A stretch of 64,000 nt of DNA from Microcella humidisoli (lineage in GTDB: Bacteria > Actinomycetota > Actinomycetes > Actinomycetales > Microbacteriaceae): positions 1,488,001 to 1,552,000 of the forward strand of contig NZ_CP101497.1 in NCBI RefSeq assembly GCF_024362325.1, written 5' to 3'. Both the position numbers and the translations under genes were made by a program. Positions 51,973 to 63,159 of this stretch are shown here, in pieces. Position 1 is the stretch's first letter; each line of letters begins with the position of its first letter. A model generated the notes under the pieces. The model ran no database searches. It was not told the DNA's origin and worked only from the letters and a program-made list of their open reading frames with translations.

Positions 51973-52044
51973 TTGTCACCGGATTGTCACCTCTTCTGGG
52001 TTAGCCTTGCCTCGTGGTGCCGCACGGGCACCCGAGGAGTGGCC

Positions 52045-52161
52045 ATGAGTGAGCGACGCGACATCCAAACCGTGGATGCGCGCGCCGTCTTTCGCATAGC
52101 CGCCCGCGCCCGCTGGATCGCGCCCTGTCGCGGTCTGGCCGAAGTGAGCACTGCCGCCTGA
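52045..52161 (+). CDS. 38-residue Arg/Ala-rich small ORF ending in a terminator
   Basis: The frame starts MSERRDIQTVDARAVFRIAA, has seven arginines and one WIAPCRG stretch, and is preceded by GAGGAG 5 nt before ATG 52045. TAGCCT (52002-52007) upstream is a possible -10, and a GGTGCC/GGCACC stem lies between. Its last five codons form the left arm of a strong terminator, so the unit is about 165 nt from promoter to terminator. It could be a small protein, or a leader peptide controlling the downstream HNH gene by attenuation. No homologue is recognised. Confidence 0.55.
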   Translation: MSERRDIQTVDARAVFRIAARARWIAPCRGLAEVSTAA

Positions 52162-52177
52162 CGGCAGTGCTTTTTTT
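52147..52177 (+). terminator. Rho-independent terminator overlapping the 38-codon ORF
   Basis: AGCACTGCCG (52147-52156) pairs perfectly with CGGCAGTGCT (52162-52171), followed by seven T. It is the most canonical terminator in the window. The ORF stop codon is in its loop (52159-52161). Confidence 0.93.
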
Positions 52178-52275
52178 GTGCCCGAAGGGGCAGCGGCTCG
52201 GCCTCGCACCGTGAGATGCCACGACCCGGATAGAACGCCCGCAGGCCATGCGGGCCCGTTCGACAGGAGCCGTCA

Positions 52276-52776
52276 ATGCGCACTCTCGTTCTCAACGCGG
52301 GCTACGAGCCCCTCGCCGTCGTGTCGTTCCGCCGAGCTCTCGTGCTCGTGATGAACGAGAAGGCGACGGTGCTCGCCTCCGATGGGGAGCATCCGGTGTT
52401 CGGCATCGACGGCCGGTGGGACCGCCCGAGCGTCATCGTGCTGCGCCGTTATGTGCGCGTGCCGCACTCGCGTCAAGTGCCGCTCACCCGCCGCGGCGTG
52501 CTGCGGCGCGACGGCAACCGCTGCGCCTACTGCGGCGGCAACGCCACGACCATCGACCACGTCATGCCGCGCTCGCGCGGGGGCGCCGACTCGTGGGAGA
52601 ACCTCGTGGCGTGTTGCCTCAAGTGCAACAACATCAAGGGCGACCGCACGCCGGCCGAGATGCGCTGGCAACTGCGGGTGGTGCCGAAGGCACCGCACGG
52701 CACGGCCTGGCTGGTGCGCGGTATCGAGCGCCCGCTGCCCGATTGGAACGAGTACCTGGCGCCGCTCGCCGCATGA
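52276..52776 (+). CDS. HNH endonuclease-domain protein
   Basis: The 166-residue protein has an HNH_5-type motif: RCAYCGG, TIDHVMPRSRGG, SWENLVACCLKCNNIKGDRTP, with two CxxC zinc pairs and the catalytic histidine in DH. Closely related single-copy proteins are conserved in actinobacteria, so a housekeeping DNA role is more likely than a mobile homing enzyme. AGGAG precedes ATG 52276, with a long hairpin at 52233-52261 just before it that may influence translation. The transcript may depend on read-through of the upstream terminator. Confidence 0.9.
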   Translation: MRTLVLNAGYEPLAVVSFRRALVLVMNEKATVLASDGEHPVFGIDGRWDRPSVIVLRRYVRVPHSRQVPLTRRGVLRRDGNRCAYCGGNATTIDHVMPRSRGGADSWENLVACCLKCNNIKGDRTPAEMRWQLRVVPKAPHGTAWLVRGIERPLPDWNEYLAPLAA

Positions 52777-52859
52777 TCGCGGGATGCGCGCCGTGCGCTG
52801 CGCCGCGCGTCGGGTGATTCGGCTCGGGGCCCGGAAGCCTCCCCACGCAATGTGACGTT

Positions 52860-52875
52860 CGCGGCATGTGCCGCG
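52860..52875. promoter_or_regulatory. 16-bp palindrome upstream of the deaminase-ASCH gene
   Basis: CGCGGCATGTGCCGCG is a perfect palindrome 30 bp before the -10 element of the fusion gene and is flanked by TGTG and CACA at similar distances. This is a plausible repressor operator; it could instead be a hairpin. Confidence 0.4.
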
Positions 52876-52915
52876 AGAGGCACACAGCTCATGACGGGTG
52901 CGGCAGTATGGCGAC

Positions 52916-53629
52916 ATGCGGATGCTGGAGTCGGAGAAAGCAGTTCTGAACGCTGCTGAGGCCGTGGCGCGCACACTCGGGTCGAGTGGAGATCACTCGG
53001 TTGCCGCAGCCGCGATGGACATCGACGGTCGCATCTACACCGGAGTGAATATGTACCACTTCACCGGCGGGCCCTGCGCGGAGTTAGTGGTTCTCGGGGC
53101 CGTCGCCGCCTCGGGCGGCAGGCCGATCATGACGATGGCAGCTGCTGGAGATGGCGGCCGCGGTCTCATCGCGCCGTGTGGACGTTGCCGGCAGGTGATG
53201 CTCGACACCCACCCGGACGCAATCGTGATCGTTCCGACGACTGCCGGCCCACAGCCGCGAACTCTTCGGGCCCTCCTCCCGGACACGTATCGCTTTCCGG
53301 ACGCGATGCCCCCACGACTCGTTCGCTTCAACCGTCGCTATGCCGAAGCTATCCAGTCGGGGGCGAAGAGAATGACGATCCGATTCGATGACCCGCTCTC
53401 TGTCGGCCCTGCGACGCTGATCTTTGAAGACCACCCGGAGTTCCTGTCGCTAGCGGCACGCGTGGAGTCGGTTAAGTCAGTGCCGCTGAATGAATTGACC
53501 AGCGCGCACGCGGCGGCTGAAGGCGCCGACTCGGTGGATGACCTGCGTGACGGTCTCCGCAATCACTACCCAGGCTTGCCCGACGATGCGGTAGTCGACG
53601 TCGTCGAGTTTCACCTGCAGCTGCCCTGA
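52916..53629 (+). CDS. Blasticidin-S-deaminase-like domain fused to an ASCH domain
   Basis: Residues 1-130 match the cytidine-deaminase fold and are strikingly close to blasticidin S deaminase: DGRIYTGVNMYHFTGGPCAE, then GLIAPCGRCRQVMLD. Zinc ligands Cys54, Cys88, Cys91 and the proton-shuttle Glu56 are present; Tyr47 replaces the ribose-binding Glu of ordinary cytidine deaminases, as in BSD. Residues 133-237 are an ASCH domain with KxxTxR at Lys151/Thr154/Arg156 and Glu202, the catalytic set of the N4-acetylcytidine amidohydrolase YqfB. ATG 52916 is taken because CAGTAT (52904-52909) lies 6 nt upstream (leaderless). Codon use is less GC-biased than neighbours, suggesting transfer. The combined activity is inference. 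Confidence 0.85.
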   Translation: MRMLESEKAVLNAAEAVARTLGSSGDHSVAAAAMDIDGRIYTGVNMYHFTGGPCAELVVLGAVAASGGRPIMTMAAAGDGGRGLIAPCGRCRQVMLDTHPDAIVIVPTTAGPQPRTLRALLPDTYRFPDAMPPRLVRFNRRYAEAIQSGAKRMTIRFDDPLSVGPATLIFEDHPEFLSLAARVESVKSVPLNELTSAHAAAEGADSVDDLRDGLRNHYPGLPDDAVVDVVEFHLQLP

Positions 53630-53684
53630 CGAGCGCGACGCATCCAATCTGGAATCTGACGGGCTCGTCGACCACAATGCGACC

Positions 53685-54314
53685 ATGAGCGATGCGGATG
53701 ACGCCGACGCGCGAGCGCGGTTCGAGAGCGCCCTGGCGACCGAGTACTTCGTGCTGCAGGGTGCCTCGGGCGCCACGATCTCCGAGAGCAGCAGCCGGTC
53801 GTCGCTCTACATGGTGTCGCTCTCGAGCAGCCTCATCGCACTCGGCTTCGTGCTGAACGCCTCGGCGGAGTCGTTCCTCGCCTTCGCGGCCGTGGTGCTG
53901 CCGGTGCTGTTTCTGCTCGGCACCTTCACGGTCGTGCGCCTCGTCGACACGAGCGTCGAGAACGTGCGGGTGCTGCAGCAGATGGCGCGCATCCGGAGGC
54001 ATTTTGCCGGCATCTGGCCGCCCGGCGCGCACCTCTTCGGCGTGGTCGAGACCGAGGTGGGCGAGGCGAGCCGGTCGCTCGGGCTGCGGCGGGCGAACCG
54101 CCGCGCGGTCTTCTTCACGATGGCGACGGTCATCGGCGCGGTCAACGCCGTCGTCGGCGGGGCGATCGTCGTGCTCGTGCTCACGAGTCCGCTCGGGCTG
54201 CCGACGAGCGTCGCGGTGATCGCGGGCGTGATCGCGGCGGTCGCGCTCAGTGCGATCGCCGTGGGGTATCAGCTGGCGCGGTTCGCGCCGCTCTTCCCGC
54301 GCGAGAAGTCCTAA
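53685..54314 (+). CDS. Four-helix membrane protein of unknown function
   Basis: The 209-residue protein has an acidic N-terminus, a short soluble helix (about 14-38), two membrane helices (42-82), a cytoplasmic stretch with LQQMARIRRHFAGIWPPGAHLF, and two further helices (140-195). No catalytic motif is recognised. CACAAT (53673-53678) lies 6 nt before ATG 53685, so it has its own leaderless promoter. The 2TM-soluble-2TM layout recalls SLATT-like proteins, but the match is not strong enough for a call. It converges with the esterase gene, overlapping by 4 nt. Confidence 0.7.
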   Translation: MSDADDADARARFESALATEYFVLQGASGATISESSSRSSLYMVSLSSSLIALGFVLNASAESFLAFAAVVLPVLFLLGTFTVVRLVDTSVENVRVLQQMARIRRHFAGIWPPGAHLFGVVETEVGEASRSLGLRRANRRAVFFTMATVIGAVNAVVGGAIVVLVLTSPLGLPTSVAVIAGVIAAVALSAIAVGYQLARFAPLFPREKS

Positions 54315-55258
54315 TCCCGGGCGCCGAGCATGCCCCGCAGGGCGTCGACCTGGCGCTGCACGAAGTCGCGCGAGACCGCGGCCGTCGGCTCGGCCGCGTC
54401 GAAGCCGTGGTACGCGCCCGGGATGACGTGCAGCTCGGTCTGCACGCCCGCCGCCGCGAGCCGTCGCGCGTATTCCACATCTTCGGAGTGGAAGAGGTCG
54501 AGCGTGCCGACGCCGATCCACGTCGGCGGCAGGCCGCTGAGGTCGGTGCGGCGCGCCGGCACTGCGCGCTCGAGGGTCGCTGCGTCGAGGGGCGTCGCGG
54601 CGGGGCCGTTCGCGCCCGCGCCGAGGTACATGCCCCAGCCCAGGCGGTTGCTGGGGCCGTTCCAGAGGCGCAGCATGCGCGGGTGGGCGGCCGCGGGGGA
54701 GTCGGTGCGGTCATCCAGCATCGGATACGCCAGCACCTGCCCGGCCAGCGCGATATCGCCGCGGTCGCGGGCCATGAGGGCGAGGGATGCGGCGAGGCCG
54801 CCTCCGGCGCTCTCGCCGATCACGGCGATGCGTGTCGGGTCGACATCAGGCTGCGCGGCCAACCACTGCAGGGCGGCATAGGCATCGTCGAGCGGCGTCG
54901 GGTAGGGGTGCTCGGGCGGCATGCGGTAGTCGACGCTGATGGCCACCGCTCCGAGCTCGTCGGCGAGGCGCCGGCAGAGTGGGTCGCCCTGGGTGGCCGA
55001 GCCGATGATGAGGCCTCCGCCGTGCAGGTGCAGGATTCCCGGGCGGCGTTCGCCGGCATCCATCACTGCTGGCCGGTGCACGCGGATCGTGACCCCGTCG
55101 CCCAGGTCGATGAGTTCGCCACCCTTCGGCGGGCGGCCACGCCCGATACGAGTGAGCGCCCGCAGCAGTCGGCGGTTGCCCCGCGTGGCCGACGTGCGCG
55201 GCATGAACCGCGCGCGCGTGAGGTCGGGGTGGAAGGCGGGGGAGTCGTCGGTGACCAT
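54311..55258 (-). CDS. Alpha/beta hydrolase, hormone-sensitive-lipase-type esterase
   Basis: The 315-residue protein has the HSL-family oxyanion motif HLHGGGLIIGS, nucleophile elbow GESAGGGLA, catalytic Asp in GTLDLFHSED and His in PGAYHGFDAAEP. Such enzymes cleave short acyl esters. TAGATT (55270-55265, minus strand) lies 6 nt before ATG 55258, so it is leaderless; its promoter is back to back with that of the HEAT protein. Confidence 0.92.
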   Translation of the reverse strand: MVTDDSPAFHPDLTRARFMPRTSATRGNRRLLRALTRIGRGRPPKGGELIDLGDGVTIRVHRPAVMDAGERRPGILHLHGGGLIIGSATQGDPLCRRLADELGAVAISVDYRMPPEHPYPTPLDDAYAALQWLAAQPDVDPTRIAVIGESAGGGLAASLALMARDRGDIALAGQVLAYPMLDDRTDSPAAAHPRMLRLWNGPSNRLGWGMYLGAGANGPAATPLDAATLERAVPARRTDLSGLPPTWIGVGTLDLFHSEDVEYARRLAAAGVQTELHVIPGAYHGFDAAEPTAAVSRDFVQRQVDALRGMLGARD

Positions 55259-58802: not shown

Positions 58803-61205
58803 ATGCAGCATCACGATCACCATGTCCACCCTTCGACAGCATCAGCGACCACGCCGGAGTCGAAGCTTGCGGTCTGTCCTGTGATGCCCAACACCGTGGT
58901 CGTGAAGAGCGACTCGGAGGAAGCGGGTCTCTACCGAGATTTCCAGGGGCAAAGGTATTGGCTGTGCTGCGAGGGATGCGTCCTCCGCTTTGACGCGGAT
59001 CCGGAGAAGTTCGCGGCATCCGCTGAAACGCTCCCGTCTCCCCACGAAGTGATCCGACGACGAGCCGCGTCCGAAGAAGAGCACGCCCATAATGACCACA
59101 CCCACCATGAGCATGGTGGGCATCAGTCCTCGGGCCACTCCGCGATGCAACACGGTGCGCACGCTGGCCACGGTGGTCACGCTGGTCACGGTGATCACGT
59201 GGGTCAGTTCCGACGTCTCTTCTGGATCATGTTGGTGCTCGCAGTACCAGTGGTTGGGCTCTCGAGCATGTTCGCCATGCTTCTTGGCTACGAACTCCCT
59301 GATTGGCCTTGGGTGACCTGGGTTTCGCCGCTGCTCGGTTCGGTCATCTATCTCTGGGGTGGTCGGCCCTTCCTGGTGGGAGCAGTCTCGGAGATTCGAT
59401 CCCGCAAGCCTGGAATGATGCTGCTCATTGGACTTGCTATCACCGTGGCGTTCGTCGCGTCGCTCGGCGCAAGCCTTGGGCTGCTTGATCATCAGCTCGA
59501 CTTTTGGTGGGAGCTTGCACTGCTGATCGTCATCATGCTCCTTGGCCACTGGATCGAAATGCGTTCCCTCGCGCAAACGACATCGGCGCTTGACTCGCTG
59601 GCTGCTTTGCTTCCTGACGAAGCGGAAGTCGTCGACGGAGATCAGTTCCGCACTGTCGCGCCGGCGGATCTGGAACTCGGCGACGTGGTGGTGGTCCGTC
59701 CTGGTGGTCGCGTTCCGGCTGACGGCCGAGTCGTTTCGGGTTCTGCGAGCATGGATGAGTCGATGATCACCGGTGAGTCGAAGACGGTGACACGGAGTGA
59801 AGGCGAGATTGTTGTCGCCGGCACGATCGCGACGGACTCATCGATTCGTGTTGAGATCACCGCGGTGGGCGAAGACACTGCGTTGGCTGGCATTCAGCGT
59901 CTGGTTACCGAGGCGCAGAATTCGACGTCGCGAGCACAGCGGATCGCAGACCGCGCTGCTGCGTGGTTGTTCTGGTTCGCGCTTGCCGCCGGAGTCGTCA
60001 CTGCGGTCGTGTGGAGCCTTATTGGTCTTCCGGAGGATGCGGTCATTCGAACTGTGACGGTGCTGGTCATTGCCTGTCCGCATGCTCTCGGTCTTGCCAT
60101 TCCGCTTGTTGTTTCGATCGCGACTGAGCGAGCAGCGCGCGGGGGTGTGCTCATTAAGGATCGCCTCGCCCTTGAAAGCATGCGGACGGTTGACACCATC
60201 CTGTTTGACAAGACGGGCACCCTCACCAAGGGTGAGCCGACCGTCACTTCAGTCGAAGCCACCGATGGGATCACGGAAGATCAGGTCGTCGCGCTCGCTG
60301 CCGCCGCCGAGTCTGACTCCGAACACCCGTTGGCTCGCGCAATCGTTGAGGCGGCGCGAAGTCGCGGCATCGACGTGCCAAGGGCGAGTGGCTTCACCTC
60401 TTCCCCAGCAGTTGGCGTGACCGCGCAAGTCGACGGTCAGAAAGTTCGCGTGGGCGGGCCACACCTCCTCACTGAGGAGAACGTGACAGAACTCGAAATC
60501 GCAGATGAGTGGCGCAAGGAGGGAGCAATCATCCTCCACGTCGTTTCGGACGGAAAAGTGGTCGGGGCGCTGCGCCTGGCTGACGCGATCAGAGACGAAT
60601 CTCGAGAAGCAGTAGCGGCGTTGCACGCTCTTGGACGTCAGGTCGTGATGATCACTGGCGATGCGGAAGCGGTCGCTCATACGGTCGCGGCCGAGCTCGG
60701 CATCGATCGTGTCTTTGCTGGAGTTCGTCCCGAGCACAAGGCGGCAAAGGTGCGGGAGCTTCAGAACGAAGGTCGCTCGGTCGCGATGATCGGTGATGGC
60801 GTCAATGACGCTCCAGCCCTGGCACAAGCAGACGTCGGTATCGCCATTGGTGCAGGTACTGACGTCGCCATCGCTTCGGCCGGGGTGATCTTGGCAAGCT
60901 CTGACCCGCGATCGGTGCTGTCGGTGATTCAGCTCTCGAAGGCTTCCTACCGAAAGATGAAGCAGAACCTGTGGTGGGCAGCGGGCTACAACCTCCTCTC
61001 GGTGCCGCTTGCGGCTGGTGTGCTGGCGCCGATCGGGTTCGTGCTGCCGATGTCCATCGGGGCTGTCTTGATGTCGGTTTCGACCATCGTGGTCGCATTG
61101 AACGCGCAGTGGCTGAGACGCCTTGACCTGAAACCCGAGGCGAGCGTGAAGGCCATCTTGGGTTCGCTACCCGCGCAGAAGTCGGAGGTTGCGCATGTCA
61201 GCTGA
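58803..61205 (+). CDS. copB: CopB-type copper-exporting P1B ATPase with N-terminal YHS domain
   Basis: The 800-residue pump has a short His tract (MQHHDHHVHP), a YHS metal-binding domain (VCPVM ... YWLCCEGC ... DADPEKF, about 24-75), a second His-rich segment (92-133) and eight membrane helices. The transmembrane metal motif is CPH (VIACPHALGLAI), as in CopB rather than CPC CopA. P-type motifs are TGES, DKTGTLTKG (phosphorylated Asp), SEHPLA and GDGVNDAP. It exports copper or silver. AAGGAG lies 5 nt before ATG 58803. Codon use (many T- and A-ending codons) differs clearly from the core genes. Confidence 0.93.
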   Translation: MQHHDHHVHPSTASATTPESKLAVCPVMPNTVVVKSDSEEAGLYRDFQGQRYWLCCEGCVLRFDADPEKFAASAETLPSPHEVIRRRAASEEEHAHNDHTHHEHGGHQSSGHSAMQHGAHAGHGGHAGHGDHVGQFRRLFWIMLVLAVPVVGLSSMFAMLLGYELPDWPWVTWVSPLLGSVIYLWGGRPFLVGAVSEIRSRKPGMMLLIGLAITVAFVASLGASLGLLDHQLDFWWELALLIVIMLLGHWIEMRSLAQTTSALDSLAALLPDEAEVVDGDQFRTVAPADLELGDVVVVRPGGRVPADGRVVSGSASMDESMITGESKTVTRSEGEIVVAGTIATDSSIRVEITAVGEDTALAGIQRLVTEAQNSTSRAQRIADRAAAWLFWFALAAGVVTAVVWSLIGLPEDAVIRTVTVLVIACPHALGLAIPLVVSIATERAARGGVLIKDRLALESMRTVDTILFDKTGTLTKGEPTVTSVEATDGITEDQVVALAAAAESDSEHPLARAIVEAARSRGIDVPRASGFTSSPAVGVTAQVDGQKVRVGGPHLLTEENVTELEIADEWRKEGAIILHVVSDGKVVGALRLADAIRDESREAVAALHALGRQVVMITGDAEAVAHTVAAELGIDRVFAGVRPEHKAAKVRELQNEGRSVAMIGDGVNDAPALAQADVGIAIGAGTDVAIASAGVILASSDPRSVLSVIQLSKASYRKMKQNLWWAAGYNLLSVPLAAGVLAPIGFVLPMSIGAVLMSVSTIVVALNAQWLRRLDLKPEASVKAILGSLPAQKSEVAHVS

Positions 61206-61502: not shown

Positions 61503-61546
61503 GAGGCGTCGCAGTGGTTCAGCCACTGCGACGCCTCGACTTGTTT
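61503..61546 (+). terminator. Terminator of the copB-csoR operon
   Basis: A perfect 15-bp stem (61503-61517/61523-61537) with a 5-nt loop is followed by GACTTGTTTT. A second small stem CGACTTG/CAAGTCG (61538-61555) shares part of the tail. Confidence 0.88.
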
Positions 61547-61590
61547 TCAAGTCGAGTACTAACACCCACGAAAGTGGAAGGAGGATGACA

Positions 61591-62145
61591 GTGAAACAAC
61601 GTATAGCAATCATTTCCGGGATCGTTGCGATTCTTGGAATAAGTGTCGCAGGAGCGCTCGCGTGGATGAACCGAGCAGAACCATTCAACGATCGAGACGT
61701 TGCCTTCGCCTCGAACATGGTGCCCCATCATGTGGGGGCCCTGGAAATGGCCGAAGTAATTCTTAGCAAAGAGGGAATTCCTGCGGAAGTTCAAGAGCTC
61801 GCGGCTCGGATTGAAGCTGCGCAGCAGCCAGAGATCAACCAGATGAACGACTGGCTTAAAGCGTGGGGCACCCCGACCATGGCCGGCGGTCATGGTGGTC
61901 ACTCCATGATGATGAGCGGCATGATGAGCGAGGCAGACATGATGGCTCTCGAGGACGCCCAGGGCGTTGAAGCCGCACGGCTGTTCCTTGAAGGAATGAT
62001 CATTCATCACAAAGGCGCGGTAGAGATGGCCCAAGTCGAGGTCGAAGGCGGCCGGTTCCCTGAGGCTGTCGCGCTCGCTCGTTCCATCATTGAGCAACAG
62101 ACCGATGAGATCGCCGAGATGGAGAGCTTGCTTGCAAACCTGTAA
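61591..62145 (+). CDS. DUF305 membrane-anchored protein
   Basis: The 184-residue protein has one N-terminal membrane helix and a four-helix DUF305 domain with NMVPHHVGALEMAEVIL and GMIIHHKGAVEMAQVEV, the His-His pairs that bind copper in related proteins. A Met/His-rich loop (HGGHSMMMSGMM) lies between them. It likely buffers copper outside the membrane. GTG 61591 is chosen because AAGGAGG lies 5 nt upstream; an ATG at 61585 overlaps that site. A second DUF305 gene starts at 63654, with a shared 14-nt leader motif. Confidence 0.88.
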   Translation: MKQRIAIISGIVAILGISVAGALAWMNRAEPFNDRDVAFASNMVPHHVGALEMAEVILSKEGIPAEVQELAARIEAAQQPEINQMNDWLKAWGTPTMAGGHGGHSMMMSGMMSEADMMALEDAQGVEAARLFLEGMIIHHKGAVEMAQVEVEGGRFPEAVALARSIIEQQTDEIAEMESLLANL

Positions 62146-62181: not shown

Positions 62182-63159
62182 ATGAACGTGTGGCACGTCG
62201 TCAGTGCGGCGGCCCTTGCAGTGCCGCCGCTCTTGTGGACGAGCATTCACGCTCTCTCTCAAGAGGCGCGTCTCTGGCGACCGGGTACCGGCAAGCGCAC
62301 CCAGGTTGCCGGCCTCGGAGTGCGGATGTATGGGTTGGGCGAGACGGTCGTCGTGCTTCTCGCGGGCCTCGCCTCGAGCGAACGATTCTGGGGCGAGAAG
62401 TATGACGTGATTGGACAGCGCGCGCGGGTCGTGGCCATCGACCCGATCGGATTCGGTGCTTCGATTCACCATCCGGCGCTTCAGGAGACCGTCGATGCGG
62501 GGGTGCACGTCGATGCTGTACTCGAAGTGCTGCGGACCCTCGACCTACATACTCAGCCCGTCGTGTTCGTCGGCCACTCCATGGGCGCATCCCTGGCGCT
62601 CCGGGCGGGCGCGAGACACGCACCGACGAGGGCAGTCGTGGCATTCGATGCTCCCCTGTATCGTTCTGCTGAAGAGGCCAACGACCGCATCCGGCATATG
62701 GGCTGGTTCGAGGCGCTGCTCGCCCAAGGTCCGCTCGCCGAGCGGGTGTGCCAGTGGATGTGCCACAACCGCACGGTGGCTCGCGGGGTTGCGATCGCAA
62801 TCAGCCCGCAGATCCCCGTGGCGGTCGCCCGGGACTCGGTCGAGCACACTTGGTCGGGGTACATCGCAGGCTTCGACTCGCTGGTGCGCGATTCTGGCTG
62901 GTCTGACGCGCTCGTCGATCTGGCTGCGCGCAACGTTCCAGTTCGCTTGGTTGACGGTGAGAAAGACCCGGTGCAAGTTCCCGGTCGTGCCGAAGAGCTC
63001 GAGCGCGCGCACCCGAACATCACCGCGACACGCCTGCCCGGCGGTCATCGTTTGCCCCTGAGCGACCCGGAGCGTTGTGCGTCGATCGTGAGCTCTGTTC
63101 TCAGCGAATACGCTATTTCGAGTGAGGGAGATGTGAGACCATACCCCCTGGAGGTATGA
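62182..63159 (+). CDS. Alpha/beta hydrolase
   Basis: The 325-residue protein has an N-terminal hydrophobic helix, the nucleophile elbow VGHSMGASLAL, an Asp in VDGEKDPVQVPG and a C-terminal LPGGHRLPLSDPE with the catalytic His. The substrate is unknown and a role in copper handling is not evident. Its 3' end contains the second CsoR-like operator (63141-63157), so the downstream gene is controlled from within this gene. TACGCT lies 8 nt before ATG 62182. Confidence 0.85.
   Translation: MNVWHVVSAAALAVPPLLWTSIHALSQEARLWRPGTGKRTQVAGLGVRMYGLGETVVVLLAGLASSERFWGEKYDVIGQRARVVAIDPIGFGASIHHPALQETVDAGVHVDAVLEVLRTLDLHTQPVVFVGHSMGASLALRAGARHAPTRAVVAFDAPLYRSAEEANDRIRHMGWFEALLAQGPLAERVCQWMCHNRTVARGVAIAISPQIPVAVARDSVEHTWSGYIAGFDSLVRDSGWSDALVDLAARNVPVRLVDGEKDPVQVPGRAEELERAHPNITATRLPGGHRLPLSDPERCASIVSSVLSEYAISSEGDVRPYPLEV
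63141..63157 (+). promoter_or_regulatory. Second CsoR-like operator, before the DUF6153 gene
   Basis: ATACCCCCTGGAGGTAT (63141-63157) has the same ATACCCC...GGGGTAT-type dyad as the copB operator, with one mismatch in the right arm. It lies 6 nt before ATG 63163. Confidence 0.75.

Follow-up and report, generated by a model that had tools for sequence, protein, structure and literature searches.

A gene joining a blasticidin-S-deaminase-type domain to a YqfB-type ASCH domain recurs in many genera and may serve in detoxification of cytosine nucleosides

In a 64,000-nucleotide stretch of the Microcella humidisoli genome (contig NZ_CP101497.1, positions 1,488,001 to 1,552,000; the window), one gene encodes a 237-residue protein, P0001, in which a deaminase of the blasticidin S deaminase (BSD) type is followed by a YqfB-type ASCH domain. 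The fusion pairs two familiar kinds of enzyme in a new way and is found in many genera. No published description of it was found in the literature searched, though an earlier mention may exist elsewhere, e.g. in Iyer 2011 on the deaminase fold; the records of relatives that were seen are named ‘ASCH domain-containing protein’, ‘cytidine deaminase’ or ‘hypothetical protein’. It is quite possible, if far from settled, that the gene has spread horizontally and by itself provides an enzyme that detoxifies cytosine-nucleoside inhibitors. More doubtful is the narrower proposal that one polypeptide acts as antidote for both N4-acylated cytosine antibiotics (amicetin group) and blasticidin S, by YqfB-like deacylation and then BSD-like deamination. 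An earlier interpretation made from the letters of the window (the sequence-only reading) had described such a two-step enzyme; overall it is partly supported by the analysis below.

The union of both domains in one reading frame, claimed by that reading, was confirmed by Pfam, which placed dCMP_cyt_deam_1 (PF00383) at residues 6-105 (8.3e-7) and ASCH at residues 138-233 (2.3e-12), both above cut-off. A protein search returned 564 relatives at E ≤ 1e-3. Among the best 120 of these, 107 carried the ASCH Pfam domain by our own count, and identity to P0001 was 76-78% for four and 52-60% for the others. At least 550 stretches in the genome collection encode relatives, deaminase-only ones possibly included; 80 were kept for the locus counts. 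L005 and G016 (L161) are apparently one contig of 24616 bases and count as a single observation. The same domain pair, which had been suggested as something to look for in other genomes, was present there: an ASCH signature (own pattern) lay downstream of the deaminase in 78 of the 80 loci, which represent 23 named genera and 11 named families. Given this recurrence, the fusion is neither a chance product nor an assembly artefact. The window genome itself is a single contig of 2.65 Mb.

The first half of P0001 was nearer to BSD than to housekeeping cytidine deaminase (Cdd) in sequence and fold. Identity to Aspergillus terreus BSD (PDB 1wn5/1wn6/2z3g-j) was 46-49% in Foldseek rows and 43-46% by VIA-align, and the two proteins have in common the zinc residues, Glu56 and the VNxYHFTGGPCAE and PCGRCRQV motifs; the deaminase motifs quoted by the sequence-only reading are present. 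Unlike the A. terreus enzyme, a single domain of ~130 residues, P0001 adds the ASCH domain. Tetrameric Cdd (3mpz, for instance, and the copy in the window genome) shares the zinc deaminase fold, but identity is only 26-37% in Foldseek rows and 30% to the genome's own Cdd, which has Glu at the position of Tyr47, just as had been stated for ordinary cytidine deaminases. The residues C54, E56, C88 and C91, which we take from the cytidine deaminase and BSD literature to be zinc ligands and proton shuttle, are nearly invariant (Table 1). Stand-alone BSD-type deaminases of Actinomycetota belong to the same deaminase family and are interleaved with the fusions on the tree, but have no ASCH domain. 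Motifs, fold match and tree position therefore support a BSD-type and not a Cdd-type first half, as had been proposed. The BSD of Streptomyces lividans (Li et al. 2013) may be a relative.

That P0001 is no more than a housekeeping cytidine deaminase carrying an ornamental domain is accordingly very improbable and already largely refuted. The PF00383 zinc fold is common to both, and a cytidine deaminase model tops the NCBIfam matches (59 bits), but this score misses the equivalog cut-off of 74, a second Cdd equivalog reached 52.2 bits against 113.65, and P0001 fell under the cut-off of each Cdd model listed. It groups with BSDs on the tree, and the genome encodes a separate Cdd over cut-off (G000:C1:596137-596496). 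Furthermore, the fusion was found in 2 of the 26 genomes of the genus (1 of the 19 with a completeness of 90% or more); of the 24 without it, 23 gave a Cdd-like match only (29-35% identity) and one gave none.

The predicted fold of the second half was closer to YqfB than to other solved ASCH folds. Unlike Escherichia coli YqfB (N4-acetylcytidine amidohydrolase, PDB 9kyf/9kyh/1te7), to which it is 24% identical, the domain is fused to a deaminase. Equivalents of YqfB K21, T24, R26, H70, E74 and Y89 are all present in P0001. Alignment with K21, T24, R26 and E74 upheld the catalytic residues named by the sequence-only reading (K151, T154, R156, E202), and H198 and Y218, absent from its list, align with H70 and Y89. 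The second half is thus supported as a YqfB-type ASCH domain with catalytic residues in place. Across the family only the K, T, R and Y are general; the E74 and H70 equivalents, unlike in YqfB, are gone in many relatives. According to the excerpted text of PMC6972931, no function has been assigned to the great majority of ASCH proteins. Residues 136-237 matched a single stand-alone protein of 85 aa in a search limited to shared short words, and no second ASCH protein was found in the window genome.

Under the proposed mechanism, the ASCH domain would hydrolyse the N4-acyl group, with K151 as base, T154 as nucleophile, R156 at the oxyanion and E202 as acid, roles modelled on the published proposal for YqfB. 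The zinc deaminase would convert the 4-amino group, freed or already free, to a 4-oxo group, and the resulting uracil nucleoside would be inactive on the target. Such a two-step N4-acyl route looks chemically sensible, and from these comparisons we infer catalysis by either half, the order of the steps and blasticidin- or amicetin-type nucleosides as natural substrates. The ASCH domain begins a few residues past the segment that, in tetrameric cytidine deaminases, reaches over the neighbour's pocket; the intermediate, possibly still toxic, could therefore be consumed at once. At the position of the second glycine of the GxxxG(A) loop, mapped onto the family by what we take to be the Bacillus Cdd numbering, all 174 two-domain proteins compared (see below) have I, L, V or M, so that a separate deacylase would be useful. 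Some cytidine deaminases strip N4-acyl groups directly, and the GxxxG(A) loop dominates in those active on bulky groups, as far as the excerpted text of PMC9897663 goes.

The sequence-only reading had also named N4-acetylcytidine (ac4C) from the cell's own RNA turnover as a target. Neither PF13718 nor PF05636, to which we assign the ac4C writers TmcA/NAT10 and TmcAL, was found in any of the 246 Actinomycetota genomes sampled, the window genome included; controls such as E. coli and Bacillus subtilis were positive. Endogenous ac4C is therefore an unlikely substrate, and ac4C from other organisms is a possible one. As one full-length fusion occurs among the 246 genomes, this result speaks for the phylum and the window genome and not for many fusion carriers. 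A scavenger that deacylates and deaminates ac4C and related cytidines from environmental RNA breakdown to uridine is decidedly unlikely. In the excerpted text of PMC6972931, ac4C is a substrate of YqfB, and N4-acetylcytosine supports the growth of E. coli uracil auxotrophs that have CodA; a yqfB mutant was able to grow too, meaning that another route exists. Apart from the writer families missing from the sampled phylum, the window genome already has a Cdd, and a patchy, partly plasmid-borne distribution together with a BSD-type half suits detoxification better than scavenging. Cytosine antibiotics would likewise fit better than endogenous ac4C because of the BSD-type half, the accessory-gene distribution and the acceptance of N4-benzoyl groups by YqfB. 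Amicetin bears a para-aminobenzoyl group, resembling the para-substituted benzoyl substrates of YqfB. Table 1 of PMC6972931 lists N4-benzoyl and para-substituted benzoyl groups as taken and the ortho-substituted ones tested as rejected.

If deacylation and deamination are indeed combined, the fusion would represent a resistance enzyme class that handles cytosine antibiotics with or without an N4-acyl group; such a class would occur in many genera of Actinomycetota, Streptomyces among them, and on some plasmids. It would also give an ASCH domain a physiological role and offer a natural deacylase-deaminase pair to activate N4-acyl-cytidine prodrugs.

Several observations weigh against the two-step proposal. 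For the residue tally, 236 proteins taken best first from three search lists, rather than all 564, were considered; 62 with a short half were dropped, leaving 174, P0001 included. Position 202 was acidic in 77/174 (49 Glu, 28 Asp) and held another residue or none in the other 97; H198 occurred in 23/174, and H198 together with an acid at 202 in 11/174, the window clade among them. Relatives of ~225 residues, an Arthrobacter form among them, are missing the region surrounding E202, and in Streptomyces forms of ~211 residues the ASCH domain is cut short at its end. YqfB D27 is replaced by F157 in P0001, directly after R156; within the YqfB branch D27 is 100% conserved (excerpted text of PMC6972931). 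The NCBIfam YqfB equivalog NF003443 scored 24.1 bits with whole P0001 and 26.9 with the domain alone; the cut-off is 93, hence P0001 is not filed as YqfB, though its ASCH domain may work like YqfB. In the large G341 genus (probably Streptomyces), where 107/295 genomes match, BSD-type proteins mostly have no ASCH domain (13/107 reach residue 234), and no antibiotic-biosynthesis or transport gene was recognised by Pfam among six neighbouring genes scanned in the window, two of which had no match. Because some lineages delete the E202 stretch or lack the ASCH domain, the two-step chemistry cannot be the general role of the family, though it can be that of the window clade.

The same data bear on the alternative that the ASCH domain is non-catalytic, serving in binding, oligomer packing or as a lid, and that resistance comes from deamination alone. 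We regard it as unlikely, if worth serious attention. The deaminase residues are near-fixed, E202 and H198 are variable or deleted, and mean identity to P0001 over the 174 proteins drops from 62% for the first half to 44% for the second. On the tree, starred branches force at least nine label changes between fusions and stand-alone BSDs. K151 (172), T154 (163, Ser in nine more) and R156 (174) are retained in most proteins even without an acid at 202. These patterns suggest the deaminase as the core function and the ASCH domain as an accessory kept in some lineages only.

Returning to the putative deacylase, an acid at 202 was found in 33/55 fused rows of the tree, and this label requires at least six changes. 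On the careful tree it was kept in 5/5 rows of the window clade and in 21/22 fused rows of one 39-row group, vs 7/28 of the rest; the acid is therefore probably old and was repeatedly lost in one part of the family. The careful tree leaves out nine rows of the first tree (L080, L141, L174, P0134, P0181, P0186, P0191, P0209, P0217), and it carries corrected labels for L029 and P0187. In the first tree the fused L141 and L174 stood apart on a long branch of their own, and the fusion may thus have arisen a second time. The position of the root is uncertain, as the distant Cdd outgroup stood beside the window clade in the careful tree and elsewhere in the first; for that reason loss of the ASCH domain rather than gain is something we infer.

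Table 1. Coordinates of the features in and around the fusion gene
Feature	Positions in window	Strand	Remarks
Fusion gene (P0001), BSD-type deaminase + YqfB-type ASCH	52916..53629	+	open reading frame, 237 aa, no internal stop
BSD-type cytosine-nucleoside deaminase domain, residues 1-130	52916..53305	+	
YqfB-type ASCH domain, residues 134-237	53315..53626	+	
Presumed zinc ligand C54 and proton shuttle E56	53075..53083	+	both in 174/174 two-domain proteins
Presumed zinc ligands C88, C91 (PCGRC)	53177..53188	+	C88 in 173/174, C91 in 174/174
K151, T154, R156 (YqfB K21, T24, R26)	53366..53383	+	by alignment; YqfB mutant data in excerpted text of PMC6972931
H198, E202 (YqfB H70, E74)	53507..53521	+	together in window clade and few other relatives, variable elsewhere
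Y218 (YqfB Y89)	53567..53569	+	157/158 proteins with a residue there; gap in 16 more
-10-like hexamer CAGTAT	52904..52909	+	T at -7, leaderless start
Dispersed palindromic repeat upstream of fusion	52849-52890, core 52857..52876		not gene-specific

The gene is accessory and probably mobile, and its distribution points to horizontal spread. In the family of the window genome 20/299 genomes matched at 1e-25; nine matches reached residue 219 or beyond and the other 11 were to the deaminase, one of them running past a stop to residue 167. In the phylum sample seven of the 246 Actinomycetota genomes matched, six with a deaminase only and the window genome alone over the full length. Among plasmids 31 records matched, six over at least 80% of the protein. 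Of the first six plasmid regions inspected, one had its copy flanked by transposase genes, and in one an insertion element separated a deaminase gene from an ASCH gene. The codon use of the fusion gene is foreign-looking: its G+C content at third codon positions (GC3) is 0.727 vs a mean of 0.891 (standard deviation 0.069) over 43 gene-like open reading frames, the fusion included, which bears out the less GC-extreme codons noted before. A role in anti-phage defence was considered and rejected, since PADLOC-DB gave 0 families at E ≤ 0.1 and PHROGs a single weak match to a family without assigned function (E 0.0015); phage records gave three weak partial matches. Three further low-GC3 reading frames (0.64-0.77) near the window end, at 61519-62097 (-), 62182-63159 (+) and 60249-60827 (-), resemble the fusion gene in codon use and are possibly acquired genes as well.

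Upstream of the gene, the leaderless promoter claimed by the sequence-only reading gained family-wide support. A -10-like xAxxxT with its T at -6 to -9 was present in 43/62 distinct upstream stretches, whereas 1000 shuffles averaged 7.1 and reached 17 at most, and Shine-Dalgarno-like motifs were present in 4/62; this supports leaderless transcription throughout the family. For 63/80 loci plus the window, a single start within three codons was taken for each gene, giving the 62 distinct stretches, whose relatedness inflates the contrast. A sigma-70 consensus scan of 52700-53800 gave no promoter. The palindrome noted before does exist, yet it does not belong to this gene in particular: it has 10 matches at eight places in the window genome (E ≤ 0.01) and lies near an HNH or hydrolase gene in 7/18 stretches of the genus, all seven without the fusion. 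Being dispersed in this way, it is no operator of the fusion gene and appears REP-like (repetitive extragenic palindromic). An RNA element was rejected, as Rfam gave nothing at E ≤ 1 in 52000-54500.

The 18 genus stretches were fetched from the HNH gene onward. In 11 of them the HNH gene is followed by an alpha/beta-hydrolase gene resembling the window's, with a fragment in one more; the fusion occurs in one (G016), directly upstream of the hydrolase gene. No neighbour recurred tellingly across genera among the 80 loci. The grouping relied on a crude gene caller of our own, and it linked the fusion itself in 73/80 loci. A conserved operon partner was rejected, the top groups being Brevibacterium synteny (at most 9 of 80 loci) and an aldo/keto-reductase-like family labelled by eye (seven).

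Additionally, some BSD-type relatives showed other architectures. In the window's family, L143 (G045) combines a BSD-type deaminase with a different C-terminal domain, ABM-like (antibiotic-biosynthesis-monooxygenase) by eye, perhaps another BSD fusion partner; at L171 a gene annotated as antibiotic-biosynthesis monooxygenase lies directly upstream of the ASCH fusion. For the single-domain BSDs L140 and L142 of the same family and six rows of the G341 genus, the match continues past one stop (in L140 to residue 167), which gives the impression of a former ASCH domain. Three Aspergillus proteins of 221-225 aa (P0217, P0225, P0227) match BSD and carry thioredoxin Pfam domains; they are possibly BSD-thioredoxin fusions or gene-model errors.
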